From a virus: a stretch of 55,822 nt of DNA. The position numbers were made by a program, and so were the translations under genes. Below the pieces are notes generated by a model that did not search any database, was not told the origin of the DNA, and saw nothing but the letters and a program-made list of their open reading frames with translations. The stretch is from positions 1 to 55,822 of the IMG/VR virus record IMGVR_UViG_3300020469_000059; one strand, 5' to 3'. Numbering within the stretch: the first letter of the stretch is position 1; each line of letters opens with the position of its first letter. Below are positions 356-55,500 of this stretch, piece after piece.

Positions 356-413
356 CCCCGCTCCGGCGGGGCGTAGCTCACAGCTACCAGTATGCTGGTG
401 GTTGCGAGCTATG
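356..413 (+). promoter_or_regulatory. Double hairpin leader, copy A, overlapping a start codon
   Basis: Hairpin 1 is CCCCGC (356-361) with GCGGGG (366-371) around a TCCG loop. Hairpin 2 has an outer stem TAGCTC (374-379) with GAGCTA (406-411) and an inner stem CTACCAG (384-390) with CTGGTGG (395-401). The last base of the outer stem is the A of the ATG at 411. Two further copies lie at 657-713 and 1466-1525. Their loops and inner stems differ but pairing is kept, which points to selection on RNA structure. No U-tract follows hairpin 1, so it is not a classical terminator. A role in translational control or mRNA stability is inferred. Confidence 0.7.
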
Positions 414-641
414 ATAAAGCATGAACATAGAGGGTTTACCCTCGAACTAGATAGGGACGGTGACAACACCGTCTACGCCGACATCTCGAAAGGAGACTTT
501 GTAGGATCGCTCGCAATGGTAGAGGATCTTGGAACCCTCGACCACTACGATGACTGGTCGAAGACCCCAATGAAAGTCCCCCAATCAACGGTGGAATTCT
601 TCCAAAAATGCGAGGAAGAATTCCTCGCCATGACAGACTAA
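411..641 (+). CDS. Hypothetical small acidic protein (76 aa)
   Basis: I chose the ATG at 411 rather than an in-frame TTG nine bases upstream, because the ATG sits at the 3' foot of the conserved leader hairpin, exactly as in the other two copies. The product is acidic (MIKHEHRGFTLELDRDGD at the N-terminus) with no membrane segment or recognisable domain. A GCGAGGAA/TTCCTCGC hairpin with a GAA loop lies inside the last codons (about 610-628). I do not recognise the family. The dedicated leader structure implies a regulated early gene. Confidence 0.6.
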   Translation: MIKHEHRGFTLELDRDGDNTVYADISKGDFVGSLAMVEDLGTLDHYDDWSKTPMKVPQSTVEFFQKCEEEFLAMTD

Positions 642-656
642 CCCTAACAGCTACCA

Positions 657-713
657 CCCCGTTCCGGCGGGGCGTAGCTCTCAGCTACCGGACTCCGGTG
701 GTTGAGAGCTATG
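657..713 (+). promoter_or_regulatory. Double hairpin leader, copy B, overlapping a start codon
   Basis: Hairpin 1 is CCCCG (657-661) with CGGGG (668-672). Hairpin 2 has a perfect 9-bp outer stem TAGCTCTCA (675-683) with TGAGAGCTA (703-711) and an inner stem CTACCGG (685-691) with CCGGTGG (695-701). The 3' strand again ends on the A of an ATG (711). That ATG opens only an 11-codon reading frame before the next real gene at 765, so the element may control a leader peptide or be displaced from its target. Confidence 0.7.
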
Positions 714-746
714 AGCAAAACAACTGAACCAAGAGACCTACCTTGA
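711..746 (+). CDS. Possible 11-codon leader peptide
   Basis: ATG at the foot of hairpin copy B opens a frame reading MSKTTEPRDLP and then TGA. In copy C the corresponding ATG also begins MSK and continues into a 61-residue gene, so this could be a decayed gene start or a genuine leader peptide for the C39-like gene 18 bp downstream. Only the position and the conserved start context support it. Confidence 0.25.
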   Translation: MSKTTEPRDLP

Positions 747-764
747 ACCTCTAACCTAACCGAT

Positions 765-1451
765 ATGAAATTGAACTCAATACACGGCAATAACCGTTAC
801 TGTGGCCCCGCAGCAATCTCCGCGATCACCGGAGCCTCGACAGATGATGCAGCGTATGCCATCCGTCAGAAATCAGGACAGCGTTTCGTCAAAGGCGCAG
901 CCATTCCCCATGTCATCGCTGCCCTCCGCGAATCAGGAGTCTTCGCCGATCAGGTATACTCCGCTCCGGTAGGTAAAGGTCTGACCTTCGCTCAATGGCG
1001 TAGGCACAGCAAAGATGATCGGAAGGCTGGTGTGGTCTATCTCATCGTCGCTGGCAACCATTATCAAGTGGTGTCGGGACGCAAGGCTACCTGTGGTAGG
1101 CTTCGTGAGATTGTCAGCATCGCAGACAAACGTCTCAAGCAACGAGCCAGAGTGTATGCAGTGTGGAAGCTGAGTGCCTCCAAGATCACCCCTCCGTCCC
1201 AGCCCAAACGAGCGAAAGATCTGAATGCCAGCGCAAGGTCGAAGGCCCGAAGACTCGCCACCAAGCACGGATGCAAGATCGACATCGATCAGGGATACGA
1301 CGGCGAGAGAAACCACTACTGGGTCTTCGGCCCCGATCATGTGGAAGCGGACGAAGACTACATCTTCTCCGGCGATCACATAGCATACGATTGGGTCGAG
1401 GTCGTTGATCGAATCGAGAGGATCGCTGCCTTTGCAGAAACGCTCGACTAA
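765..1451 (+). CDS. C39/papain-like cysteine peptidase homologue (228 aa)
   Basis: The N-terminus has a cysteine nucleophile context typical of C39-like peptidase folds (NRYCGPAAISAITG, Cys13) and a matching histidine about 85 residues later (GNHYQVVSGR). The rest, from about residue 140, is basic and then acidic with no further motif I recognise. Phages often carry short proteins with this CGPAAI...GHY/NHY signature. Their substrate is unknown to me, and cleavage of a host or phage protein is only inferred. It sits among small plus-strand genes and starts after an A/C-rich leader without a Shine-Dalgarno sequence. Confidence 0.6.
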   Translation: MKLNSIHGNNRYCGPAAISAITGASTDDAAYAIRQKSGQRFVKGAAIPHVIAALRESGVFADQVYSAPVGKGLTFAQWRRHSKDDRKAGVVYLIVAGNHYQVVSGRKATCGRLREIVSIADKRLKQRARVYAVWKLSASKITPPSQPKRAKDLNASARSKARRLATKHGCKIDIDQGYDGERNHYWVFGPDHVEADEDYIFSGDHIAYDWVEVVDRIERIAAFAETLD

Positions 1452-1465
1452 CCCCTAACCGTTAT

Positions 1466-1525
1466 CCCCGCTTGACGGCGGGGCATAGCTCTCAGCCTCC
1501 GGCCAGTCGGAAGTTGAGAGCTATG
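1466..1525 (+). promoter_or_regulatory. Double hairpin leader, copy C, overlapping a start codon
   Basis: Hairpin 1 is CCCCGC (1466-1471) with GCGGGG (1478-1483). Hairpin 2 has a perfect outer stem TAGCTCTCA (1486-1494) with TGAGAGCTA (1515-1523), and a weaker inner stem around TCCG/CGGA. The A of the ATG at 1523 closes the stem. It shares the TGAGAGCTATGAGCAAA start context with copy B although the inner loop is largely different. Confidence 0.7.
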
Positions 1526-1708
1526 AGCAAACAAGACATAATTAACCATCCAGATGCCTTCCATTTCTTGACGGTAGCCCATGCAGGTGCTGCCTCAATC
1601 GTGGAAGAACTCAACTCGTTCAATCCCGAAGGAAACCTGATCGCGATTGATGACGATCACCCGAAGTATTCAAAGATCTACATCCTAGATTCTGAATTCG
1701 TATCCTGA
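1523..1708 (+). CDS. Hypothetical protein (61 aa) behind hairpin leader C
   Basis: The start is the ATG at 1523, fixed by the conserved hairpin context. An in-frame upstream ATG-like start would run backwards through the hairpins and is unlikely. The protein begins MSKQDIINHPDAFHFLTVAH and ends in an acidic, aromatic stretch (DDHPKYSKIYILDSEFVS). No domain is recognised. It is a small soluble protein in the early block. Confidence 0.55.
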   Translation: MSKQDIINHPDAFHFLTVAHAGAASIVEELNSFNPEGNLIAIDDDHPKYSKIYILDSEFVS

Positions 1709-1721
1709 ACCCTGAACCGTG

Positions 1722-2898: not shown

Positions 2899-3156
2899 AT
2901 GAGCCTGAACTTAAACGATAAAACTAAAATGTATAAGTATACAGAAACAGAGCTTCAATCGCTCCCACCGTCATTCGGCGGCAATAATGAATACGGTTGC
3001 GAGACCGTCACCTGCTTCTCGCCTTCACCTAAGAAGGCGGTAGCGTTGGAGGGAACCATCACCCGCTCCCGTGAGGGAGTCGAGGGCGTCCCCGTCCTCT
3101 TGAATGCGACCCTCGTCGCCCCCAACGGTCGAGTCGTTTTCGACCGTTGGGATTAA
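2899..3156 (+). CDS. Hypothetical protein (85 aa)
   Basis: I chose ATG 2899 because it keeps the hairpin and CAGGA spacing seen at the 3229 gene; ATG 2929, behind AAACTAAA, is a credible alternative start. The protein is rich in Pro, Thr and Val (TVTCFSPSPKKAVALEGTI) and ends VVFDRWD. No membrane segment or known domain is seen. A 12-bp perfect hairpin is formed by its last codons (3121-3151). Confidence 0.5.
   Translation: MSLNLNDKTKMYKYTETELQSLPPSFGGNNEYGCETVTCFSPSPKKAVALEGTITRSREGVEGVPVLLNATLVAPNGRVVFDRWD
3121..3151 (+). other. 12-bp perfect hairpin inside the 3' end of a gene
   Basis: CCCAACGGTCGA (3121-3132) pairs with TCGACCGTTGGG (3140-3151) around a 7-base loop. It ends five bases before the gene's stop and is followed by an unstructured C-rich tract, not a T-tract. 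It could pause RNA polymerase, protect the 3' end of an mRNA or mark a processing site. Confidence 0.5.
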
Positions 3157-3187
3157 CCCCTCAACCTGAACCCTGAACCCTGAACCA
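3153..3187 (+). repeat. Telomere-like C-rich repeat (ACCCTGA units)
   Basis: Directly after the stop codon the sequence reads TTAACCCCTCAACCTGAA and then two further CCCTGAA units. Shorter versions follow other stops in this block: CTAACCCTAAC at 639, CTAACCCCTAACC at 1448, GAACCCTGAACC at 1707, and TTTAACCCTAAAAC at 3580. Similar CCCCGAA units occur at 55604-55625. Such C-rich, G-poor RNA resembles Rho-loading sequence, but this is inference. Confidence 0.5.
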
Positions 3188-3231
3188 GTGCTCCCTGTAG
3201 ACGATACAGGGAGCACAATTCAGGAGTCATG
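3188..3231 (+). promoter_or_regulatory. 12-bp perfect hairpin leader before ATTCAGGAGTCATG
   Basis: GTGCTCCCTGTA (3188-3199) pairs perfectly with TACAGGGAGCAC (3205-3216) around GACGA. ATTCAGGAGTC follows directly and leads into the ATG at 3229. AGGAG here is one of the few convincing Shine-Dalgarno-like sequences in the window, though its spacing to the ATG (2-3 bases) is short. Confidence 0.6.
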
Positions 3232-3579
3232 AAGACTCTTGTGAACAAAAGCAAACTAATGAAAATAACAAATAAACAACTCTTGGATTTCGCGAAGACC
3301 CAAGACCCTCAAGACACGTTCGACCTTAACTCAAGCGACAACTGACTAGCCGCTCAGGCAGCTACTCAGTTGAGTGGCCAACGGCATGGGATGAATGGAT
3401 GGTACGACTTCGCTGTCTTCGGCGAGGGTCTGGAATACACGAATGTATCTCCAGAGTATGCTCGCTGGTGTAAGTCGAGACATGAAGAAGACAGGGATCA
3501 GAGTGATCACACTCCTTTCGAGGACGCAGTCGAAGCTCTGAAATCTTTTGTTGAAAGAGAAGAAAACGAGCGTCGATAA
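3229..3579 (+). CDS. Small phage protein frame interrupted by an in-frame TGA
   Basis: The frame opens at ATG 3229 (or at ATG 3259, MKITNKQLLDFAKTQDPQDT) and runs to TAA at 3579 with one TGA at 3343-3345. Read through, it gives 116 residues. The sequence before the stop (TFDLNSSDN) and after it (LAAQAATQL) resembles a common small phage protein pattern, FDY..N-Cys-A-L-A-Q, in which the interrupted position is a cysteine. The part after the stop also looks coding (GWYDFAVFGEGLEY, then an acidic helical tail). This could be a recent nonsense mutation, a sequencing error (TGC or TGT to TGA) or real recoding. A stem-loop covers the TGA (see 3339-3372). It is flanked by early genes on the same strand. 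Confidence 0.55.
3339..3372 (+). promoter_or_regulatory. Stem-loop enclosing the in-frame TGA
   Basis: CAACTGACTAGC (3339-3350) pairs with GCTACTCAGTTG (3361-3372) with 11 pairs and a single C-C mismatch, around a 10-base loop. The TGA (3343-3345) is inside the 5' strand and the codon after it is CTA, the context of several known leaky UGA codons. A bacterial selenocysteine element usually has its apical loop farther downstream of the UGA than here, so a canonical element is not claimed. Confidence 0.5.
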
Positions 3580-4449: not shown

Positions 4450-7400
4450 CTACTCAGATTCTGTAATAGGCCGGACAGGAATGTAGCGGTTGAGCTTTGA
4501 GGCGTGGTCGTAGACCTGCTGCGCTCGCGCCCTGCCGTATTCATCAGTCCTTGGGTCGAGCAGGCTCTCGATAATGTATTTGAACGACGGCCTGTCCATG
4601 TAACCTTTACTCAGTAGAGCGACCCTATCTCGACCAAGCTTCTTATCCTTCATCCCCTTGAGGAGGTCGGTGTCGGTGAGTCCGAGAGAGGCGAACCCTT
4701 TATTGATCCGCATCAGTTCGTAGTTAAGGAGGCGTCGATCCTCGATGTTCTCATCGATGATGTCCGCTACCTCGCCGTCGCTCATAGGGACGTTACGCTT
4801 CACTGCGTTGAGTCCGCTCTTCACGTTGTTGAACCTATTGTTAAGATCCAGCAGGTAACGCGAATACTGTTTCTGGAGATCAACATCATGGATACGGAAC
4901 GGCATCGCGCCGTCCATAATCTCAAGACCCATGCCAGTCAGAGATCCGGTTGACCAGCCCTCGTAAAAATCCTTACCGAGTCGCGGAGCGTATGCCTCCT
5001 TGGCGATGTGGCCTAAGATCTTCGATCCTGCTTCCATCGGACCGTCGGCCCCCTTGTTCCAAATTGGTTTACCCGTTGACGGGTTAAGGTTTCGGCGGGC
5101 CTCAGACACTGCTCCCGCGAGAATCTGATCGTCTAAGTATTGATCCCTCACTAAGCCTAACGCGATGGCGGCTCCCGCTTCAGTGAACTCACCTCTGCGG
5201 ATGTTCTCATACCCTCGCAGGAACGGATCGACCAGTAGCGAGTATGGATTGACGTAGGTCAGGTCAACCGACTTCAGCTCACCGTTCCATCTGTAATAGA
5301 AGAACGTATGCCCTCTGAGGTAATCTGGAATGGATGCACGCATGGCCTCGTCCTCCTCATCCCCGATGCCCGATAGCGCGGCGAGTGCCATAGGAAGAGC
5401 GGAAGAAAGAACTCCTATCGTTCCCATCATTGAGTATTTTCTAAACCTACCTCTCCGAACAAGAACAGGGTTGCCGCTGGCGATCTCCTCACTGGCGAGC
5501 TTGAACGTGTTGATCATGATTCGCGGAACCTCCATCTTGAATCGGATGAACGGGGCGAACAGCAGGCCGAGACCGGACTTCGTGAACGCTGCAACGGCTG
5601 GCGGTGCTTGGCTGTATGCCTGTGAGGTCATGACTACCTTGCGTGCGGCCAGACGCTTGATCTGCGTGTCGCTCATAGCGGCGAGGTTGTTGACCCCCAC
5701 TTTGCCGTCCTTGACCGTGCTTGTGTCGGCGGCTTTTGCTTCCATCAGGATTGCCAACTCATGGTTGTAGTAGACGATCTTGTAGGCGGCGTCGAGAGCG
5801 GCGGATAGATCCTGCGCCTTCTTCTCAATCATCGCTAGACCCTTAGTGACTTTATTAAGTTTCGTCTTTTCACCTAAGTCTTCGATCTGTTTCCTGATGC
5901 CGTCGGGAGTTACCTTACCGTTCAGGAGGTCTCTCAGAACTCCGGCGCGGAGTTCGTCGCCCTTGATGTTCAGGCCGATAAGCTCATTAAGCTCTGGGTC
6001 AATCTCGCCGTCTTTGAAAGGTCTTAGGTCATAAGTTCCTTTCAACATTTCAGAGACCATCTTGTCGTAGCGGAAGAATCCCTGAGAGGTTCCGAACAAT
6101 ATGTTACCGATCCCGTTGCGTAAGTAGAATCCGATGGAGCCTAGAGTCTTAGCTGCCATCGCCTTACCGCTAAGGTTAGCGGCTAAACCAACAACTCCCT
6201 TAACAGCCTTCTCCGCTGTGTCGGCGTATCCCATCGAGAGAGAGTCCATGAGCGCAACGTCCAGAATCTCTTTGAATTCAGGATCTACCAGCATTCCTGA
6301 GAGGGGGTCGTTCTTACTCGGCGCACCCGATCTAGCGGCCTCAAAGTTAGCATACTTGGCGCGGCTCTCTGCGGTAGCTAACTTCTCTTTCACCGTGATC
6401 ATGACGCCAGTTCTCTTGCCGTATGCCACCATCTGGTTCAGGAATGCCTGCTGCGACGCGATTGTCGCGACGGTAGAGTAAGTCCGAAGAATCAAATCGA
6501 TACCGGACTCTGACCCAATTTCGCCGAGAAGATTTCGGATCGGCTCCGGCAGCTCTTTACGGCGTCTGAGGTTGTCCTCAATCATCTTGTAACTTTTAGG
6601 CGTGGCCGTCGTCGAGTCTCTGCCGCCCTTCTCATACTGCATCAAGAAGGTGTTAAGCGAACCCTGCGCGTATGATCCATGTGGGCTGCTTTGGTTCTCT
6701 CTTTCGAGGAGTATGCGAGCTTCAACCTTGGCACGCGACTCGTCCATGCCGCCCTCAAACAGCTCCTTGGCCTTAGTTTTTATGTATTGGTCCTCAAAGA
6801 ACTCCATAGCGGCGTCCCTCACATCTTGATAATCGGGATCTTCCCTCACCTTCTGGAGGTAAGACGAGTCGGTAAACATCCTATAACTGCGGGTAATGTA
6901 GATGCCTCCGGTCTTAGAGATCTTGGCTCCAATATTTTTATCGAGGCCAGAGTCAACGAGTTTCTTCTGCAACGGGATGATCAACTCCTGCCGTATGTCG
7001 ATAATGTGAGCGGCTAGCTCTGGAGAGTCCTTAGCGAGGTCTCTCAGAGCGGCGTCGCGGTCGGCTTCCCTAGACTTTCGGGCCTCTTCGTAAGCTCTAT
7101 CGGTGGCCTCAGTTCTCGCATTATGGGCGAGTCCTTTTAAGGAGTTAGCTTGTTCGTCAGTGATCTCGCCTGCTTTGCGCTTCCTCTCTGCGTCGGCGTG
7201 TGCGTCGTCGTAATCTTTCTCGATAGCGTCAAGCACTTCATCAGTAACCATGTTACCTGTGTAGTGTCCCTGCGCGAGAGCGATCATTTCCATCGGCGCG
7301 TTTTCGTAATCGCCGTAGGTCTCCTTAATGAGTTTATCCATCTTCTTTTTATAGGTGACGACGTTAGCCTCAGTAAGTCGCTTGTAAGCGTCTCGGTTCT

Positions 7401-10400
7401 GGATCAATCGGCGGAAGGCTTCTGGAAGCTCGCCAGCGAACACCTTATTCAGGAACTCCATGATGAAGTTCTGTGGCTTTCCGGTCTCGGTCTCGTATAC
7501 AGGGATCTCAAGGAGATCGACCACTGCGGAGAAGTCTATGTTCGATCCTGTCTGCTGGCCGGACGGCGCGGCTGCGGCTGCGGCTGCGGTGGGGGCTGAA
7601 TACAGAGGTAGTTTTACGGTCTCAGCTCCCTCGTCCGCTTTTCTAAATATAAGTTCGCGTTGAGAAACACCAACGGACGGTGGGAAGATGCTGTCTTCCT
7701 CCGATTTTTTAATTGGATCTGTGTTGCCGTCATAGGGGTCGGCTGCTTTTTTGGGGTTAGGTTTCTTAGCCGAGTAAACTACGTCTTTCCACAGGTTGGA
7801 CTCACTCAGAACGTGGACTACAGGTGTCTCACCCGAAGTGCTGCGTATAGAATATGGGTATGAGTCATGGAAGTCAGTCTCGACGGCTTCGACCTCTCCC
7901 TTCATCGAGAGAACAGCGTAAACCCGCCCAGATGCTTTCTTATCCATTTGCTGAAATTGCTGGAAGGTCTTGACCAGCGGCTCTGCAAAAAGATCTGCCA
8001 TGCCCTGCATGACTGATGCCTGTGCGAGTTTGCCTTGAGGTATGTTACCTTTATTGTATAGGTTCTTGTCACCAGCCAGAAGATCAGCTATGTTCAAAGC
8101 CTGATTTTTCTTTTTATCGAAAGCAGCTTTTTCCTTTGGGCTGAACTTCTTCTGAACTTCCACTGTCGGCAGTTTCATGCTGTCAGCTATTGCTGACGAT
8201 ATCTGAGCGATAAAGGAACCACGTTGTGGGAACACTGACTCTTCAGGGTGGAGATTCTTTTTCATCTCCTCTATGTTTTTAGCCAGTCCGTCTTTCAGCT
8301 TCAGTTTCCTTGAAAATTCTTTGATGGTGGTCGTCTCGACTCCTGTATCTTTGTCTTTCTTTTTAACAACTAATCTCTCTTTACTGGCGTTAACAATAGC
8401 ACGGTTTACGACCGCCTCAGTGATCCCATACTTCTTGGGGTTCTTGGCTAGAGTGGCGAACAGGTTGACCGCTCCCGTAGCCATTGTTGTGGAGCTAAAC
8501 ATCTTCTCGATGGGAGCGGACGTGAGAGCCATAAGAATAGTTCCGTTGTTGCGCTTGGATATCTTGTTAAGGTTTTCCGCCATGTTCACAGCGGCGTCCT
8601 TGGTAGATGCCCAGAAATACCCTTGGTCACCGAACATGACTGGGTAGTAAACACCTCCCTTGCCGTCTACGACCTTATCGCCCTCGACCTCCAGTGTGCC
8701 TGCCATTGCGCCGTCAGGTTGGTGGAGCATGACGGCCATTCCCTCAAACTGGTCGAGGGATTGCTGTATCTTAATGTATCCGTTCTTGATCTTCTCGTAA
8801 AACTTCCCGTCTTCTTTGACGTAGATGTGTTTGACTATGGGATCACTCGCACTGGCGATTTCTGGTGGGGTCTCTATTGGGGCTGAGGAGAGTCTTCTGG
8901 CTGCTCCTCTAATCGGGAGAGAGTCAGGTCCAGTATCAGATCTTGCTGCGCTTGCGAGGATAGGATCTCCTCCGTCTCTTGGAAGAGGGCTTCCAATTCT
9001 TCGTTCGATGTCGTTTCTTTCATAAAGTGTTTCTAAGTAACCGTTATAACTAACGGGCGTTTCTCCAGATTTTCTTATAGAGGCTCCCCATAAAGCGGCT
9101 TGAACTTCTCTGGGTTCCCACCCTAAAGTATTAGCTACTTCAGTCAAGACCTTTTCTGCTTTTTCAAACTGAGCTTTACTAGGCGATGTCTTATTGAAGA
9201 GCATACGAGCAACGTGTCTATCAACAACAACTTTACTCGTATCACCAGCAGAGGCTTTATCGTAGTTAGATATCTTCCTCCCACTCAGCTCTTCATCGTC
9301 CCTGATTTTATCAAGGTTACTAGCTACTCCTTTAAGGTATCCTTTTCCTTTACTGTCGAGGAAAGGCTCCCCCCGCTTCATCTGGCCATACGCTTTAAGG
9401 GCTAAAGCGACATTGGATTTCACACTTGCGGCCTGTGAGGTAGCACTGAGAATTCTCTGGAATAGTTCAGCGTCGGGGCCGAAGTAGTCTTTCAAAAGAG
9501 CTTCGTGTCGATCATAGAAGTCTTTCCAATCTTTTGAGGTTTCAACTGCTTCAATGATCTCTTTTCGGGTCATGCGTAATCTCAAAGAGTTTTTCTTTTT
9601 AACTCTTTTTATAACAGCGTCTTCTACCGGAGCAGACGCTAAACCAACGAAGTCCTGATTCACGGTTCCGAACATCCTGAAAGCCTCCATCGGGTTTTCA
9701 GGATTGAACGCCATCTTCGTGGGCTGGCGGACGAAACCTACCTCGATAGCTCGCATCTCAATAATCAACTTATTGAGGGCGATATCTGCTGCGGCTCCGA
9801 TCTTTTTACGGTTGGCGACCCATCGGTTGATGATCCCCCTAAAGTAACGATTCAGAATCCTAAGTAAGGAAGGCTTTGATTTCCAGAATTGGGTGTCGTC
9901 CTCAGTAGTGAAACCCCGTGTGACCTTCTGGAGGTGCATACGAAGTTTCTCTTCCGCCAACTGATACTTGGCGTCTGCGACTTCTTGAGGGTCAGATGAC
10001 TGAAGTCTCGCCAGCATGGTCGCGAGTCCACTTTCGTTTCCGACGAGGTATTCTTTAGCGATGTCCACGTAGTCTGAGTCAGAAAGACTGTTGATGTAAT
10101 TCTGAATCTCTTCGTCGGTCAAAGCGTTGAAGCTGGCGTTATGGGTCAGCTCCTCGTTGATTATAACACCAGCGATTGCGCGTCCGGCGATGTCACTAAC
10201 GTCGCCTGTCTGGCTCAACATAACAGGCAGGTTTATGAAGATCGCTGAAGAATCAGGGTCCACAAAGGCAGCACTGCCGCCGGACTCAGTAGTGAGTTTT
10301 ATGTCTATGCCCACCGGAACCAGACCCCTGATGTAATTGTATAGTTCTCTTACTTTAGGTCGGTCTGCCTCTGGAACACCTTCAAGGAATCTCTCAGCAT

Positions 10401-13400
10401 CTTCCACGTCTTTCTGACGCTTCGCTTCAAGACGTGCCTGCTCTGTCTCGCGCTGCATCTCGCGCAACGCCTCTGCCCTCTCGATCCGAGACTCGGTTTG
10501 GGCAACTGGTGAACTGTATAACGTCGCTGCATTAGCGACCTGACCGCCCAAAGCTTTGGCGTTGGTGGTCGTTGTCGAGCGGGTATTACCACCCACGTTG
10601 ATAACATCCTCAAGAGATTCTGCTACTTTGCTGGCGTCACCTCTACCTACATTAGGGAACAGCATGGCTAGGTTAGTCAGGAAGCGGGAGAAAAATGAGG
10701 ATCTGTTGGGGGCTGGTTTGAGATCCCTAACGTGCTTCTGCACTTCTTCCGATAACAAGAACTGAGCGGTGAACTCATTAAGATCGACAAGAGCGTTCTC
10801 AAGAGACGGGACGGGTCCGCTTCTTTCTTTCTGCGATTCGTAAGACTCTTTTGCGGAGTCGAAAACAGCGGATAACTGTTTGAGTGTAGTCTGGACTTGA
10901 GACGATTTCTCCGCGATTTGAGCCTCAGTAGCTGAAGTGGTATCAGAAATAAATGCGTGGACGTATTCCTCAAGTAGTGTGTTGACGAGACCTCGACCGT
11001 TTCCAGATGTCACGTTGATAAACACAGTGTGCGAGCCGTCGTTCCCCTTGATGTATTTGCCTGCGATGTCGGCGGTTGTTTCCCCCAACACAAACTTAAC
11101 CCCTTTGATCAAATCAGTGTCACGCAGAAGCAGGTCAGCTACGACTTTGTGAGACGGGTTATCTGAATTTTTAGCGACCTCTTTAAGGGCTTTGATGACG
11201 CTGTCAGGGTTCCCACTCTCAAGACCCAGTCTCTCGATATCAGCCTCGTTCTCAGCCTTGATGGTCGCCCTCTCGGCGGCAGAGATGTTAGATCTCGATA
11301 GGTGGGTGCGGACTGCTTTAGTTAAAGCAATCATTGTGTTCCTCGCCTCGTCAATAGAGATCTGTGTCCCCACGGCGTCAGTGAACAGAGCTTGGAAATA
11401 GCTCACAGCGTCAGAGTTCTCGTAGCTCGCACCGTCCGAGCGGGTTGCGAAGTTGACGAGAAGTAGCGCGTTCAGAAAATCTGTGCCGCTGGTCGAGAGT
11501 TCATTTTTCTCGATAGCATCCACAAGCTTATTAACAGATGGTCTGGTGTCGCCGTTTCCAGATGACATCCATGAAGTAAACAGCCCGAACACGTCTTCGG
11601 CACTCGCGTTCTCAACCATGCCCTTCATCTCAGGAGTGGGGTCGTTCAAGACCTCATCAAGGATAATCTTGTTGACCTCTCTGCGTAAGTCTGGGCTGGT
11701 ATTCACCGCCCCAATCGCGGTGTCTATCGCTCCAGATACTGCGTCGCTTATATCTTGTGGAGAAGCAAGTTCACCGTCAGGGTTACGCCCGAAGTTAGCG
11801 ATCCAACCGCTTACTTTAGCGTTCCTGAACTCAGCGGGGGCTACGTCGAACGGGAGGGTGGAGACCGCTCTCTGTTCTCTAAGGGAGTTGGCGTCGTCCT
11901 GTTGCAACTTAAACTCATCGGTAGCTTTTCTAAGTAGCGTGTCGAAGGTAGGCGTCGCGTTGTTAGCGAAGTCGGGGTTGTTCTGGAGTTTCTGCTCCAC
12001 AAATAATCCTATAACCGCCCCGCCCGTAAGGTTGATGTTAGACTCTACTTTAACAAACGGTAAAAGTTTTTGGGCTGCTTGCTCTACATTTTTAGATCCT
12101 GTCTGAGCCACCACTTCGTCTATAATTGTGGCAGGGTTAGAGAGTAACTTCTCGCGGAGACTGAACAACTGCGCGTTGAACAAGAATTCTTGCTTGGCCG
12201 ACTCTAACGAAGCGGCGTGGAACTCAAGACCACGCTCACCGCTGAGAATTTTAAACCGTGCTTGAACGTCGTCGTTCGTCTCGTCTCCGGTCTTCTCCAG
12301 CTCAAGGGCGAATCTATTGATTCTATTTTTAATGTCAGTAGTGCTAGCGAAAAACTTTCCCTCTATGGGTCCGCCGTTTTCTGGGTCGAAGTCTGCGACG
12401 CCGTTTGGTAGGGCGGCTGGCTTGAACGGGATACTGGCTAAGGCAGCAGCTCTCGCGTTGTTCGGCTCAATCGAACTAACGTCCCTCGCGTTACCGAGCT
12501 TAGACTCTAGCAGGCGACCGTCGGCGGTAGGCCCGACCACGTCAGTAACCCTCCCGTCCGTGATTCGGATAGCGGGGTTGAGGTTTGCCCTATTAAAACT
12601 GCGGGGAACCTTAACGATTCTACCAGACTTCAAGATCTCGATAATGGAGATCGGGTCGTTATCGAATATGCCGTTACCACTATCATCAACAAAAAATTTA
12701 ACGGGCTGTCTTTCGGTCTTACCGGATACGGGATCGAAGTAAGTCCTTTTCGGTCGTTTACTGGTGTCGAGCTTTGCGTTCTTTGGAGGAGCGAGCTTAG
12801 GGTAAGCGGTGTAGACCGCAGAAGCCACAAACTCTGACAGGGACTGCCGTGACGATTCAGACGGCATCGGCAAACCATAGTTTACGTTGGGGTCGAGGTT
12901 AAGCGGGAAGCCGTGGCTGATCGCGAAGTCGATGAGCTTGTTAGCTTTCTCTTCTGCGTCAGGGCCACTGAAGGGAGGGTCATCAAACCTAAGTGTGCCT
13001 GACGACGGCCTTGAAGAATACCGCTTTGACTTAGACGGGTCGAAGCCACGGCTGTTGCTGTTGGTCGAACTTATGTTGGTTCTGGACTCACCTTGAAGGG
13101 AAACACCAACGGACTCTGCGTTAGTTTGTTCTTGGGTGAAGTCGATACTAGGACCGCCAGCGTAGTCTTTAATTTTTCTAGGGGATTTACGACCGTAATC
13201 AAAAGGAGTCTCGGCAGCTGGGACTGAAGGGTCTTCGATGCCCTCAATTTTAAGAACCGTGGTATCCTCACTATTATTAAAGTTGATATTCTGCTGGTTT
13301 CGGATGTTCTCGAAAGCGATCTCAACGTCAAGTGGGCTGGCCTCGTTTAGGGACTGCAAGAACACCTCTGGATCTACCTGCTGGTCAGTAAGTGTAACAT

Positions 13401-16275
13401 CAGGAGTAGTGGGTGACTGTGAGGCAACTCTAAAGTTTTGTTCCTCTTCTGAGAGGGCCATGCTCTCCTGCCCAAGCTCTATTTTCCGTTGTTCGCGGAC
13501 GGCGACCTCGGCTTCTCGCTCCTCCTCATTTTCAGGTAGGGTCGATTCGTCATCGAGTTTAGATATCTCTTGGGCGATCTCCTTACTTCTTTTAGCGTTC
13601 TTTGTTCTTAGTAGCGTCTCCTCAGTAACAGTCTCAGATACCTCTGAGGGGAGTAATGGTGCTGGTTCAGGCGCAGGCGAAGCCGCACCACCCCTTATAC
13701 GGGTCATCATTAGCTCACGAACCTGCGCGGCGGCGAGCGGACTACCTGTTCCTTCAAGCTCAGAAGAAACTTGTTCAGCGAAATCATTCATCATCCGAAT
13801 ACGCTGCTCTAGCTGATCCATCGGGGTAACGCCTAAGCGACCTCCAACGGACTGAATAGCGGGAACACCGCCACCGAGAATACCGCCAACTTGTGCGGCG
13901 TGCCACACCTGCTTCATCCTCTCAAGGATCGGCGTGTCCTGATTAAGTGCCACGTCTTCAACGAATGAATTGACTAACTCATCAACACCTTCTTCAAAAC
14001 CTTCATCGACAACATTCTTTACGATCCTCTTTCCAAGAGTAGCGGCCCCATACTTCTTGATGGAGTCGTTCATTACTTTTGTCATGGTTATTTTGACGGT
14101 CTCATCAGTGATGCCTCCCGTGTTACCCATTGCTTGGAAAAGCTTTTTAGATTCTCTAAAGGTCATGCCTTTAAGCAAGGCGTCCTCAACACCTCCGCGA
14201 CCTATCGCACTGAAGCCAGAAGTGATCACACCTGTGATCGCGCCAGAGGTTATGGCAAAGCCTAAAGCCCTGTCGTGGGCTTCCTCTTCGGTGAGGTTAG
14301 GGTCTTTACGTAGCTGGTTGTAAAGTGAGCCATAGCTCATCGCTCCGCTGCGTGTGGCTGCTGGAACGAAGGTCGCGACCCCCAAATTAAACTTACTGGA
14401 GGCTGCTTTGTTAAATGCTTCGATAGCTTCGATGGTCTTGTCGCGGCCTCCTTTTTCCGCCGACTCCCTGATAAGATCTTTAGCGGCCTTCTCTGCCACT
14501 TCTTTATAACCTTCTTTCGAGCTAGCTCTAAGAACATTACTGGTAAGTGCTTTACCTAGTCCCTTAGCGGTGAGCTGCGCTCCGCCTTTCGTGATACTTC
14601 TCACGGCCAAGTAACCCGCTCCAGCAGCACCACTGGAAACTGAAGCTAACACAGTCGTAGCGGCTATGTCCACGATAAGGGGCGCAACACTTTCGGACAC
14701 GTCTTGGAACAGGCCGTATTGCTCACCAAAAATCTGCGCGACCTCGCGGCGGTCAGACTGTCTCTGAGCCGCATTAGAGAGACCGTCTTTGGCCCAGTCC
14801 GCGCCCATAGCAGCGGGAGCGATATACAGAAGGCTGGCGACAGAGTCCCAGACAGAGTAGGCGATTCCCTTAGCACTGTCCAAGTATTCATTGAAGTTCT
14901 CATCCTTAGCGATGAAATCATCGAAGATGTCTAGGTCATCTCTTCCGGCCTGTCTGCCGGACACAAGAGCTTTCGCCCAGTCGTCACCGACGGCGGACTC
15001 AGACAGGAGCTTGCTGTAGCTCGCGAAGTTTTGTTTGAGAACCTGAACACGGTTATCGGTGAAAAGTTTTTTCTGCTGGGCGGTAAGTTCAGGGTGCGCG
15101 GCAAGAGTATTAACCATGTCCTCTTCACGGGCAAAGACTGCGGGGTTCAGGACTGGGCCAAGCGCGGTCTTGTAAAGGTTCTTACCCGCTTCAGACGGGT
15201 CTTGATGTAACTTAAACGCTCCGGTCCTAGCTCCCTCATTAATAACATGGGCTTCGTAAGCTGCGCGGACATCGTCGGGGCTGTAATTAGCTCCAGAACC
15301 GTTCAGCTTCTCAGTGACATACTCAATCGTATCGTCAAAGGATTGGCGGCTAGCGATATAAATCCTCTTTTTCTTGGAGTTGCTCTCCTCCGATTCAACG
15401 CCAGCAAATGTCAATAGATCGCTAATTCCCCGCGTGACGGTTCCACTTACAGAATCAAAAGCATTCTGATCTTTTCTGGCGAGTTGGCGAGTGTGTCCGG
15501 TAACGTGTTCCGCAACTGAGGCGTCCTGTTGGGCCAACTCAGCGATGCCTTCGGAGATCTCTGCGATCTGCTTGAATTTGTAAAGTTTAACGTCAAGCCC
15601 AGCGACAGGGGAAAGAAGCTTTTGAGCTACCAGACCGTCTTTAAACGACACACCTCCGATCTTGGAGGCTTTGATCGCCTGATTTACGGTCATGTTCTCG
15701 GCGGCGTCGCCGACTAACAGTTCGCGCTCGCCATTTTCATTAGTGACATAAGCCAACGGAATCTGGTTACTCTCCACCAGATTTCTCTTAACCTCATCAA
15801 ATCGGCGGTTAACAACTTCTTCAGACTTTAGTTTAAGACCAGCTATTTTATCTTGGTAAGGCTGGACAGTACCACCAGCGGCTACGACTTTCTCGCCTGC
15901 CTTATACTCAGTGAGGGTCATCCAGTCTTCGTCATCACTGTTCAGTCCGGCGCGGACATACTCAAACTTTTCCTCAAACGACGGCTCCTTGGTAGCTGTA
16001 AGAGCTTGAATAGCTTCTTCGTCTACCACACCGAGGTCAGCTAACTTAGAATTCAGTGATCCACTAATCTCTCCTTCAACACTAGGGGTGTAAGCCCCCT
16101 GTTCAAGGTAGCCCTCACGGACGTAATCCGAATACTGGACGTAGCTCTGAGGGTCAGCTTCGGTTAATTGATTCTCCTCTGACCAAACAGAAAAGGGTTT
16201 AAGTTCGGGCGGTTTAGGAGCCTCTGTGATCAGAGACTTATCAAAGTCGGTAAGGGAAGAATTCAAATCAGTCAT
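4450..16275 (-). CDS. Giant 3941-aa polyvalent/ejection protein
   Basis: One uninterrupted frame of 11.8 kb. The first ~500 residues are acidic and helical. Gly/Ala-rich hydrophobic stretches at about 528-557, 669-689 and 792-804 could enter membranes. Two degenerate zincin-like helices follow, LLEEYVHAF (Glu1769, His1773) and NEELTHNAS (Glu2041, His2045). About 2260-2400 matches a module common in large phage proteins (FGPDAELF..ILSATSQ, then VDRHVARML and LGWEPREVQAALW). Another such module is at about 2780-2810 (FHDSYPYSIR). From about 3120 (GGIYITRSYR) the C-terminus resembles the LPD38-type domain of polyvalent proteins (YLRGHTFFYY about 3650, DLTYVNPYS), with a hydrophobic span near 3615-3636. 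Co-ejection with DNA to protect it or form a channel is inferred. I found no RNA polymerase motifs. It is last in its operon, after the 343-aa coiled-coil protein. Confidence 0.8.
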   Translation of the reverse strand: MTDLNSSLTDFDKSLITEAPKPPELKPFSVWSEENQLTEADPQSYVQYSDYVREGYLEQGAYTPSVEGEISGSLNSKLADLGVVDEEAIQALTATKEPSFEEKFEYVRAGLNSDDEDWMTLTEYKAGEKVVAAGGTVQPYQDKIAGLKLKSEEVVNRRFDEVKRNLVESNQIPLAYVTNENGERELLVGDAAENMTVNQAIKASKIGGVSFKDGLVAQKLLSPVAGLDVKLYKFKQIAEISEGIAELAQQDASVAEHVTGHTRQLARKDQNAFDSVSGTVTRGISDLLTFAGVESEESNSKKKRIYIASRQSFDDTIEYVTEKLNGSGANYSPDDVRAAYEAHVINEGARTGAFKLHQDPSEAGKNLYKTALGPVLNPAVFAREEDMVNTLAAHPELTAQQKKLFTDNRVQVLKQNFASYSKLLSESAVGDDWAKALVSGRQAGRDDLDIFDDFIAKDENFNEYLDSAKGIAYSVWDSVASLLYIAPAAMGADWAKDGLSNAAQRQSDRREVAQIFGEQYGLFQDVSESVAPLIVDIAATTVLASVSSGAAGAGYLAVRSITKGGAQLTAKGLGKALTSNVLRASSKEGYKEVAEKAAKDLIRESAEKGGRDKTIEAIEAFNKAASSKFNLGVATFVPAATRSGAMSYGSLYNQLRKDPNLTEEEAHDRALGFAITSGAITGVITSGFSAIGRGGVEDALLKGMTFRESKKLFQAMGNTGGITDETVKITMTKVMNDSIKKYGAATLGKRIVKNVVDEGFEEGVDELVNSFVEDVALNQDTPILERMKQVWHAAQVGGILGGGVPAIQSVGGRLGVTPMDQLEQRIRMMNDFAEQVSSELEGTGSPLAAAQVRELMMTRIRGGAASPAPEPAPLLPSEVSETVTEETLLRTKNAKRSKEIAQEISKLDDESTLPENEEEREAEVAVREQRKIELGQESMALSEEEQNFRVASQSPTTPDVTLTDQQVDPEVFLQSLNEASPLDVEIAFENIRNQQNINFNNSEDTTVLKIEGIEDPSVPAAETPFDYGRKSPRKIKDYAGGPSIDFTQEQTNAESVGVSLQGESRTNISSTNSNSRGFDPSKSKRYSSRPSSGTLRFDDPPFSGPDAEEKANKLIDFAISHGFPLNLDPNVNYGLPMPSESSRQSLSEFVASAVYTAYPKLAPPKNAKLDTSKRPKRTYFDPVSGKTERQPVKFFVDDSGNGIFDNDPISIIEILKSGRIVKVPRSFNRANLNPAIRITDGRVTDVVGPTADGRLLESKLGNARDVSSIEPNNARAAALASIPFKPAALPNGVADFDPENGGPIEGKFFASTTDIKNRINRFALELEKTGDETNDDVQARFKILSGERGLEFHAASLESAKQEFLFNAQLFSLREKLLSNPATIIDEVVAQTGSKNVEQAAQKLLPFVKVESNINLTGGAVIGLFVEQKLQNNPDFANNATPTFDTLLRKATDEFKLQQDDANSLREQRAVSTLPFDVAPAEFRNAKVSGWIANFGRNPDGELASPQDISDAVSGAIDTAIGAVNTSPDLRREVNKIILDEVLNDPTPEMKGMVENASAEDVFGLFTSWMSSGNGDTRPSVNKLVDAIEKNELSTSGTDFLNALLLVNFATRSDGASYENSDAVSYFQALFTDAVGTQISIDEARNTMIALTKAVRTHLSRSNISAAERATIKAENEADIERLGLESGNPDSVIKALKEVAKNSDNPSHKVVADLLLRDTDLIKGVKFVLGETTADIAGKYIKGNDGSHTVFINVTSGNGRGLVNTLLEEYVHAFISDTTSATEAQIAEKSSQVQTTLKQLSAVFDSAKESYESQKERSGPVPSLENALVDLNEFTAQFLLSEEVQKHVRDLKPAPNRSSFFSRFLTNLAMLFPNVGRGDASKVAESLEDVINVGGNTRSTTTTNAKALGGQVANAATLYSSPVAQTESRIERAEALREMQRETEQARLEAKRQKDVEDAERFLEGVPEADRPKVRELYNYIRGLVPVGIDIKLTTESGGSAAFVDPDSSAIFINLPVMLSQTGDVSDIAGRAIAGVIINEELTHNASFNALTDEEIQNYINSLSDSDYVDIAKEYLVGNESGLATMLARLQSSDPQEVADAKYQLAEEKLRMHLQKVTRGFTTEDDTQFWKSKPSLLRILNRYFRGIINRWVANRKKIGAAADIALNKLIIEMRAIEVGFVRQPTKMAFNPENPMEAFRMFGTVNQDFVGLASAPVEDAVIKRVKKKNSLRLRMTRKEIIEAVETSKDWKDFYDRHEALLKDYFGPDAELFQRILSATSQAASVKSNVALALKAYGQMKRGEPFLDSKGKGYLKGVASNLDKIRDDEELSGRKISNYDKASAGDTSKVVVDRHVARMLFNKTSPSKAQFEKAEKVLTEVANTLGWEPREVQAALWGASIRKSGETPVSYNGYLETLYERNDIERRIGSPLPRDGGDPILASAARSDTGPDSLPIRGAARRLSSAPIETPPEIASASDPIVKHIYVKEDGKFYEKIKNGYIKIQQSLDQFEGMAVMLHQPDGAMAGTLEVEGDKVVDGKGGVYYPVMFGDQGYFWASTKDAAVNMAENLNKISKRNNGTILMALTSAPIEKMFSSTTMATGAVNLFATLAKNPKKYGITEAVVNRAIVNASKERLVVKKKDKDTGVETTTIKEFSRKLKLKDGLAKNIEEMKKNLHPEESVFPQRGSFIAQISSAIADSMKLPTVEVQKKFSPKEKAAFDKKKNQALNIADLLAGDKNLYNKGNIPQGKLAQASVMQGMADLFAEPLVKTFQQFQQMDKKASGRVYAVLSMKGEVEAVETDFHDSYPYSIRSTSGETPVVHVLSESNLWKDVVYSAKKPNPKKAADPYDGNTDPIKKSEEDSIFPPSVGVSQRELIFRKADEGAETVKLPLYSAPTAAAAAAAPSGQQTGSNIDFSAVVDLLEIPVYETETGKPQNFIMEFLNKVFAGELPEAFRRLIQNRDAYKRLTEANVVTYKKKMDKLIKETYGDYENAPMEMIALAQGHYTGNMVTDEVLDAIEKDYDDAHADAERKRKAGEITDEQANSLKGLAHNARTEATDRAYEEARKSREADRDAALRDLAKDSPELAAHIIDIRQELIIPLQKKLVDSGLDKNIGAKISKTGGIYITRSYRMFTDSSYLQKVREDPDYQDVRDAAMEFFEDQYIKTKAKELFEGGMDESRAKVEARILLERENQSSPHGSYAQGSLNTFLMQYEKGGRDSTTATPKSYKMIEDNLRRRKELPEPIRNLLGEIGSESGIDLILRTYSTVATIASQQAFLNQMVAYGKRTGVMITVKEKLATAESRAKYANFEAARSGAPSKNDPLSGMLVDPEFKEILDVALMDSLSMGYADTAEKAVKGVVGLAANLSGKAMAAKTLGSIGFYLRNGIGNILFGTSQGFFRYDKMVSEMLKGTYDLRPFKDGEIDPELNELIGLNIKGDELRAGVLRDLLNGKVTPDGIRKQIEDLGEKTKLNKVTKGLAMIEKKAQDLSAALDAAYKIVYYNHELAILMEAKAADTSTVKDGKVGVNNLAAMSDTQIKRLAARKVVMTSQAYSQAPPAVAAFTKSGLGLLFAPFIRFKMEVPRIMINTFKLASEEIASGNPVLVRRGRFRKYSMMGTIGVLSSALPMALAALSGIGDEEDEAMRASIPDYLRGHTFFYYRWNGELKSVDLTYVNPYSLLVDPFLRGYENIRRGEFTEAGAAIALGLVRDQYLDDQILAGAVSEARRNLNPSTGKPIWNKGADGPMEAGSKILGHIAKEAYAPRLGKDFYEGWSTGSLTGMGLEIMDGAMPFRIHDVDLQKQYSRYLLDLNNRFNNVKSGLNAVKRNVPMSDGEVADIIDENIEDRRLLNYELMRINKGFASLGLTDTDLLKGMKDKKLGRDRVALLSKGYMDRPSFKYIIESLLDPRTDEYGRARAQQVYDHASKLNRYIPVRPITESE

Positions 16276-55044: not shown

Positions 55045-55124
55045 AAAAAAAACTTTTCTCTGAGGCTCTTAGTACCTAATAATATATTATTAGGTACTAT
55101 ACGTCCAGAAGAAAAGTTTTTTTT
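55045..55124. repeat. ~80-bp palindromic element, copy 2
   Basis: Near-perfect palindrome with a core of TTAGTACCTAATAATA and TATTATTAGGTACTAT flanked by CTTTTCTCTGAG and A/T tracts, as in copy 1. It lies 13 bp upstream of the 146-aa gene start. Copies 2 and 3 are 119 bp apart in the same orientation, and the sequence between them resembles the end of the 88-aa gene's coding sequence, so the unit was tandemly duplicated. Confidence 0.85.
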
Positions 55125-55163
55125 CTGGTTTTAGGTGCTGCTTTTCCAGCACTGCATATCGGT

Positions 55164-55241
55164 AAAAAAAACTTTTCTCTGAGGCTCTTAGTATCTAATA
55201 ATATATTATTAGGTACTAAAGGTCTGAGGAGAAAGTTTTTT
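55164..55241. repeat. ~80-bp palindromic element, copy 3
   Basis: As copy 2, with core TTAGTATCTAATAATA and TATTATTAGGTACTAA. It overlaps the stop codon of the following minus-strand gene (stop at 55240). Copy 1 also abuts a gene end, so these elements behave like terminators placed at the 3' ends of minus-strand genes. Confidence 0.85.
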
Positions 55242-55500
55242 ATTGGGTTTTAAGTGCCGCTTTTCTAGCATTGCGTTTAGCCATGATTTTAGCCTTGTTT
55301 TTACGGTAATACTCTTTGTTGTAGTTCTTTACCCGATTCTTGAATGACTCATACTCCTCCGGCTCAAGGACTTTTGCCACCTCTAATTTCCGAGAGTAGC
55401 TGTATTTTGTCTTACGGTAATACTCATTTTGGTAGTCGAGCCTCTTTTCCCGATTCTTCAAATAGTATTCCTTCTTCTTTTTTGGGTCGTAATTTGCCAT
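55240..55500 (-). CDS. Basic YYxKN-repeat protein (86 aa)
   Basis: ATG at 55500. The protein is built from short repeats such as KKKEYYLKNREKRLDYQNEY, then YRKTK, and ends AKIMAKRNARKAALKTQ, giving a strongly basic, tyrosine-rich sequence. Phage proteins of this YY.KN type are thought to bind nucleic acid, often next to homing-type genes. The 3' end of its gene is partly duplicated between palindromic copies 2 and 3. Confidence 0.55.
   Translation of the reverse strand: MANYDPKKKKEYYLKNREKRLDYQNEYYRKTKYSYSRKLEVAKVLEPEEYESFKNRVKNYNKEYYRKNKAKIMAKRNARKAALKTQ

Follow-up and report, generated by a model that had tools for sequence, protein, structure and literature searches.

Three early gene starts of an uncultured phage are each preceded by a structured RNA unit in which two abutting hairpins run into the start codon itself, and the same unit was found before further genes in related phages, giving 21 copies in nine phages. 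The unit is, with near certainty, a selected element of sense-strand RNA, and it is likely to act on translation initiation of the next gene. As judged from comparative sequence evidence, there is about an even chance that it is a cis-acting leader in the mRNA of a rightward early operon, in which initiation would be locked until the second hairpin is opened. The stretch analyzed, here called the window, is a 55,822 bp phage contig from IMG/VR.

The double hairpin and its copies in the window

Each unit consists of a first hairpin of 6-7 bp with a short loop (H1) and a second hairpin of about 19 bp (H2), with 0 nt between them. The features considered in the window, with the hairpins assigned from folding and covariation, are the following:

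343 to 355, + strand: gap of 13 nt separating H1 of copy 1 from the preceding stop codon
356 to 371, + strand: H1 of copy 1, a hairpin with 6 bp and a UCCG loop
372 to 413, + strand: H2 of copy 1, hairpin of about 19 bp with ATG 411-413 as its last three pairs
411 to 641, + strand: small ORF after copy 1, 76 aa, with a distant relative in contig L005 that has no hairpin
649 to 654, + strand: AGCTAC preceding H1 of copy 2; its complement GTAGCT is part of the H2 5' arm; a possible competing helix, suggestive
657 to 672, + strand: H1 of copy 2
673 to 713, + strand: H2 of copy 2, ATG 711-713
711 to 746, + strand: ORF after copy 2, 11 codons (MSKTTEPRDLP)
1466 to 1483, + strand: H1 of copy 3
1484 to 1525, + strand: H2 of copy 3, ATG 1523-1525
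1523 to 1708, + strand: small ORF after copy 3, 61 aa

A preliminary description had reported double hairpins at 356-413, 657-713, and 1466-1525, and all three are present there with structure beyond that of shuffled sequences. Their folding energies lie between -41.3 and -44.5 kcal/mol (z -6.0 to -7.5), no dinucleotide shuffle folded as well, and hairpins of this size that end in ATG occur three times on the + strand of the window as compared with five times in total across 40 shuffled windows, or about 0.13 times per window. The earlier statement that H2 ends on the A of the ATG has to be corrected, as the entire ATG lies inside the last three pairs of H2, which are C-G, G-U or A-U, and U-A. 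The gap between stop codon and H1 measures 15 nt at copy 2 and 14 nt at copy 3, and 12-15 nt is the usual distance among the copies in general. The small genes that had been proposed to follow the hairpins are plausible after copies 1 and 3, but not after copy 2, where the ORF has only 11 codons and may be left over from a lost gene or encode a leader peptide ahead of the 228 aa ORF at 765.

A fourth copy probably lies just past the left end of the window, since position 1 falls 9 nt into a gene, and the relative of this gene in contig L004 has a hairpin at that place. Positions 1-15 thus adjoin the missing hairpin, and the other end of the contig (55740-55822) is a TCTGG tandem repeat whose counterpart in contig L003 sits upstream of the first hairpin, so that the gap of the contig probably holds the start of the operon.

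Copies in related phages

Protein, pattern, and covariance searches, together with one copy found by eye in a contig of an Opitutae metagenome-assembled genome (MAG), yielded 18 further copies in eight related contigs. The window has three copies, L004 has five, the Opitutae MAG contig three, L003, L006, L010, and L100 two each, and L098 and L101 one each. In 21 of 21 copies the unit ends with the ATG of an ORF, which bears out the view that it is both repeated and linked to start codons. Copy b in each of L003, L004, and L006 and the first Opitutae copy precede members of one gene family; similarity among these proteins starts at or near the hairpin ATG and the first 30 codons contain no other ATG, so the hairpin ATG is very probably the true start in this family.

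Strong matches to the covariance model were obtained in 7 of 50 records, many of which are fragments, and the element is therefore patchy even where the phage primases are closely related. Pattern matches in the viral contigs L009, L011-L014, L133, L134, L137, L138, and L150 lack the double hairpin and were dismissed as chance; in L009 and L011 no fold passed the filter, and additional pattern scans of viral contigs gave chance matches only. DNA and protein searches of cultured phages found neither a close relative nor the element, and a covariance search detected none in 383 further genomes from the class to which the Opitutae MAG belongs. The phages that carry the unit form an uncultured marine group whose hosts are probably Verrucomicrobiota, and co-binning of near relatives in MAGs indirectly suggests hosts among Verrucomicrobiales or Opitutae.

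Selection on pairing in the sense-strand RNA

When 18 copies were aligned, 95% of the cells were paired, and changes on both sides of a pair were observed at 11 of 25 pairs (33 cells) and in both hairpins, a level reached in 0 of 500 shuffles, although such shuffle tests are inflated by the relatedness of the copies. Sliding one strand against the other reduced pairing to 36-49%. Individual cases, however, carry weight of their own. H1 differs yet pairs in L101 and in one copy of L100, and the arms of H2 differ yet pair in the fifth copy of L004 and in the third Opitutae copy. A gene for an AAA ATPase is preceded by the second copy of L010 and the second copy of L100; the proteins are 93% identical and the hairpins are five double changes apart, with the structure kept. 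On the + strand, 39 G-U pairs stand against 13 A-C mismatches, which points to RNA of the sense strand. Pairing that is kept in spite of sequence change identifies a real RNA family, and the earlier proposal that RNA structure is under selection is thus upheld by the covariance modelling against related phages that it had named as a check, pairing being conserved in the relatives.

Two positions deserve mention. The base facing the U of the AUG is always A or G, and hence this U is always paired. At position 14, near the middle of H2, 8 of 18 copies have U-G, 8 have C-A, and 2 have C-G; U-G and C-A are pairs of similar shape, and the rarity of Watson-Crick pairing at this position hints at specific recognition.

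The family had been put forward as undescribed, and this stands: Rfam 15 at the gathering score gave no match in the window or in seven loci of relatives, and a loose search of positions 300-1900, up to E 5, gave none either. It appears to be a new RNA family and, as a kind, a variant of structured start-codon leaders.

Accessibility of the start region

A Shine-Dalgarno-like site was found in 6 of 43 long ORFs, and some Verrucomicrobiota have been described as scarce in Shine-Dalgarno (SD) sites (PMC10783764). The start region of non-SD genes is generally weakly structured (PMC5397173), a rule that the hairpin-led genes go against: exposing positions -12 to +12 is calculated to cost 13-27 kcal/mol in these genes versus 1-11.5 kcal/mol (mean 5.5) in 36 other genes. 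Exposing the AUG alone costs about 2-6 kcal/mol. The unit is thus no more than a candidate for the proposed switch that hides the start codon until it is opened: the bases ahead of the AUG are locked, while the AUG itself lies at the fraying end of H2, and with fraying this cheap any block may be a weak one. An alternative helix, AGCUA/UAGCU, whose formation would release the AUG, was considered and set aside as suggestive only; it has a mean length of 4.7 pairs versus 3.2 in shuffles, has no double-changed pair, and is paired in 76% of the cells.

A leader that moves with its first codons

The unit is followed by an A-rich coding stretch of about 15 nt, and the A content of codons 2-6 is 0.61 in hairpin-led genes versus 0.40 in other genes. 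The first genes of L003 and L004 have MTKQE in common and no other detectable likeness. The first gene of L004 has a 75% identical relative in L006 that has other first residues and a different structured leader, and when L003 is compared with L004, the first and second genes have traded hairpin types. Shared first codons together with swapped leaders and hairpin types indicate that leader and first codons act as a unit moving between genes, and the comparison of these contigs leads us to regard the leader with its A-rich first codons as a module that moves among unrelated genes.

Other leaders and repeats

A second family of double-hairpin leaders is found downstream in the same operon, at 1719-1773, 2863-2908, and 3188-3245, with a hairpin of about 12 bp, 2 nt, a hairpin of UCAGG...CCUGA type, an A-rich leader, and then the AUG, which is left free; masking of the AUG is therefore not a general theme of these leaders. 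Relatives of this second family in L003, L004, L006, L144, and L145 have different stems that pair in each case, and a pooled alignment mixed subtypes and gave no useful consensus. Between 343 and about 3258, the majority of gene boundaries are marked by one or the other of the two families.

A third structured leader, CAGCAGCC..GCTGCTCCC..GGGAGTGGCT..GTCCTTT, is repeated in L006 (near 6180 and 5400, - strand) and found in L142 (about 1380-1460), and one of its copies heads a gene whose L004 orthologue carries the double hairpin. Another hairpin, TAGCCCCACCATAAGCTC...GAGCTTTAGGTGGTGTTG, is common to the - strand of L006 (about 11030 in reversed coordinates) and to L128/L129 (about 2840-2890), its arms having changed between phages with pairing kept. 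Repeated heptads such as CCCTGAA or CCCTAAC follow stop codons in the window (1706-1718 and 3156-3187) and in L003 (5655 and 5892). Elsewhere in the window, 55050-55260 holds a near-identical pair of stretches, AAAAAACTTTTCTCTGAGGCTCTTAGTA..TAATAATATATTATTAGGTACTA, each with an A+T-rich palindrome, and 4450-16275 on the - strand is an ORF of 3,941 aa in which metalloprotease-like motifs were recognized by eye.

A scan for terminators and sigma-70 promoters around the first hairpin of L003 gave nothing above chance. Intrinsic termination by the unit was rejected, as no T run follows H2 and A-rich code is present there instead.

Discussion

In a phage with few SD sites, open RNA around the AUG would recruit ribosomes, and a region locked up to and including the AUG would keep initiation low until H2 is bound, melted, or cut, upon which initiation could proceed. 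The leader is probably closed by default, and a closed gate that is opened by a factor is a reasonable reading to which we give close to even weight. The units of one operon, up to five in number, agree in outer stem and central wobble pair, so that one factor might control all of them together. A broader version, rather improbable on present evidence, would make the double hairpin flush with the AUG and the A-rich first codons a phage-wide initiation code, either recruiting or gating, with the outer stem and the fixed U-G/C-A wobble as the features by which one factor, of phage or host origin, recognizes the module as it moves from gene to gene.

Among known systems, the coat-protein operator of phage MS2 is a translational operator formed by a hairpin with the start codon at its 3' base. 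The present unit is like such operators in that the start codon is paired within a conserved RNA helix in 21 of 21 copies, with covariation; in contrast, the MS2 operator belongs to an RNA phage, exists in one copy, contains the Shine-Dalgarno sequence inside the hairpin, and has a known ligand. In the early region of phage T7, RNase III sites are irregular hairpins that precede separate ribosome sites, and the units studied here likewise form hairpins between genes of a polycistronic transcript, cleavage being hypothetical in their case. The RNase III-activated starts of adhE and lambda cIII have a locked ribosome-binding site in single genes (PMC5371410); the start region is locked here too, but by an element that recurs at a whole set of genes. 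The ESAS/SAS elements of cluster K mycobacteriophages, in which an imperfect inverted repeat of 17 bp precedes a conserved sequence of 13 bp, GGGATAGGAGCCC, are also repeated before the starts of some non-structural genes in one phage group, and the role proposed for them, too, is a link to translation initiation (PMC3203893). Inverted repeats before the starts of several genes are likewise present here, in 21 copies on nine contigs; unlike ESAS/SAS, the two abutting hairpins include the AUG and have no sequence in common with those elements. Read base by base, 21 of 21 copies lack a 13 bp sequence of the GGGATAGGAGCCC type and have the 3' arm of H2 and the AUG instead.

The main rival to a gate on initiation, unlikely in our judgment, is that the units serve as processing sites of RNase III type and punctuate the early polycistronic mRNA, cleavage of H2 possibly freeing the AUG. 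The dimensions would suit this enzyme, as the roughly 19 bp of H2 can stack on 6 bp of H1 to give about two helix turns, and so would the intergenic placement shortly past stop codons; RNase III is known to open masked starts by cleavage (PMC5371410). The presence of leaders at most boundaries between 343 and about 3258 keeps this alternative alive, and the second and third leader families at other early gene boundaries fit it better than they fit a specific AUG gate. However, processing would not require every copy to enclose an AUG in its helix, the near-fixed wobble pair and the outer stem sequence resemble specific recognition, and the first gene of L003, of L004, and of the Opitutae contig has a copy ahead of it where no other gene lies immediately before. 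A Pfam search of 18 window proteins detected no RNase III domain.

An improbable alternative turns the effect on initiation around, with H2 presenting the AUG and the A-rich codons like a leaderless mRNA and so promoting initiation. It would account for an AUG that always sits at the exact base of H2 and frays easily, for the A-rich downstream stretch that travels with the module, and for the paucity of Shine-Dalgarno sites in the phage, but we know of no bacterial precedent for a positive initiation hairpin of such a type, and structure beside the start normally lowers non-SD initiation (PMC5397173). The shuffling of leader modules between unrelated genes and between orthologues, including the swapped hairpin types of the first two genes of L003 and L004, could also be expected of an element acting as DNA, either an attC-like recombination site at cassette boundaries or an N4-like hairpin promoter. 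This reading is very improbable, since the preference for G-U over A-C is not favoured by DNA pairing and every copy is oriented alike relative to its gene; an integron attC site was specifically rejected, as RYYYAAC/GTTRRRY boxes are absent at the H2 ends of the 21 copies when read by eye.

The double hairpin is thus a well-supported structured RNA family that Rfam lacks, with as many as five copies in a single operon, in phages whose probable host group, the Verrucomicrobiota, is one in which translation starts are poorly understood. Its 21 natural variants, among them natural compensatory mutants, provide a test set for the role of start-codon structure where Shine-Dalgarno pairing is not used.
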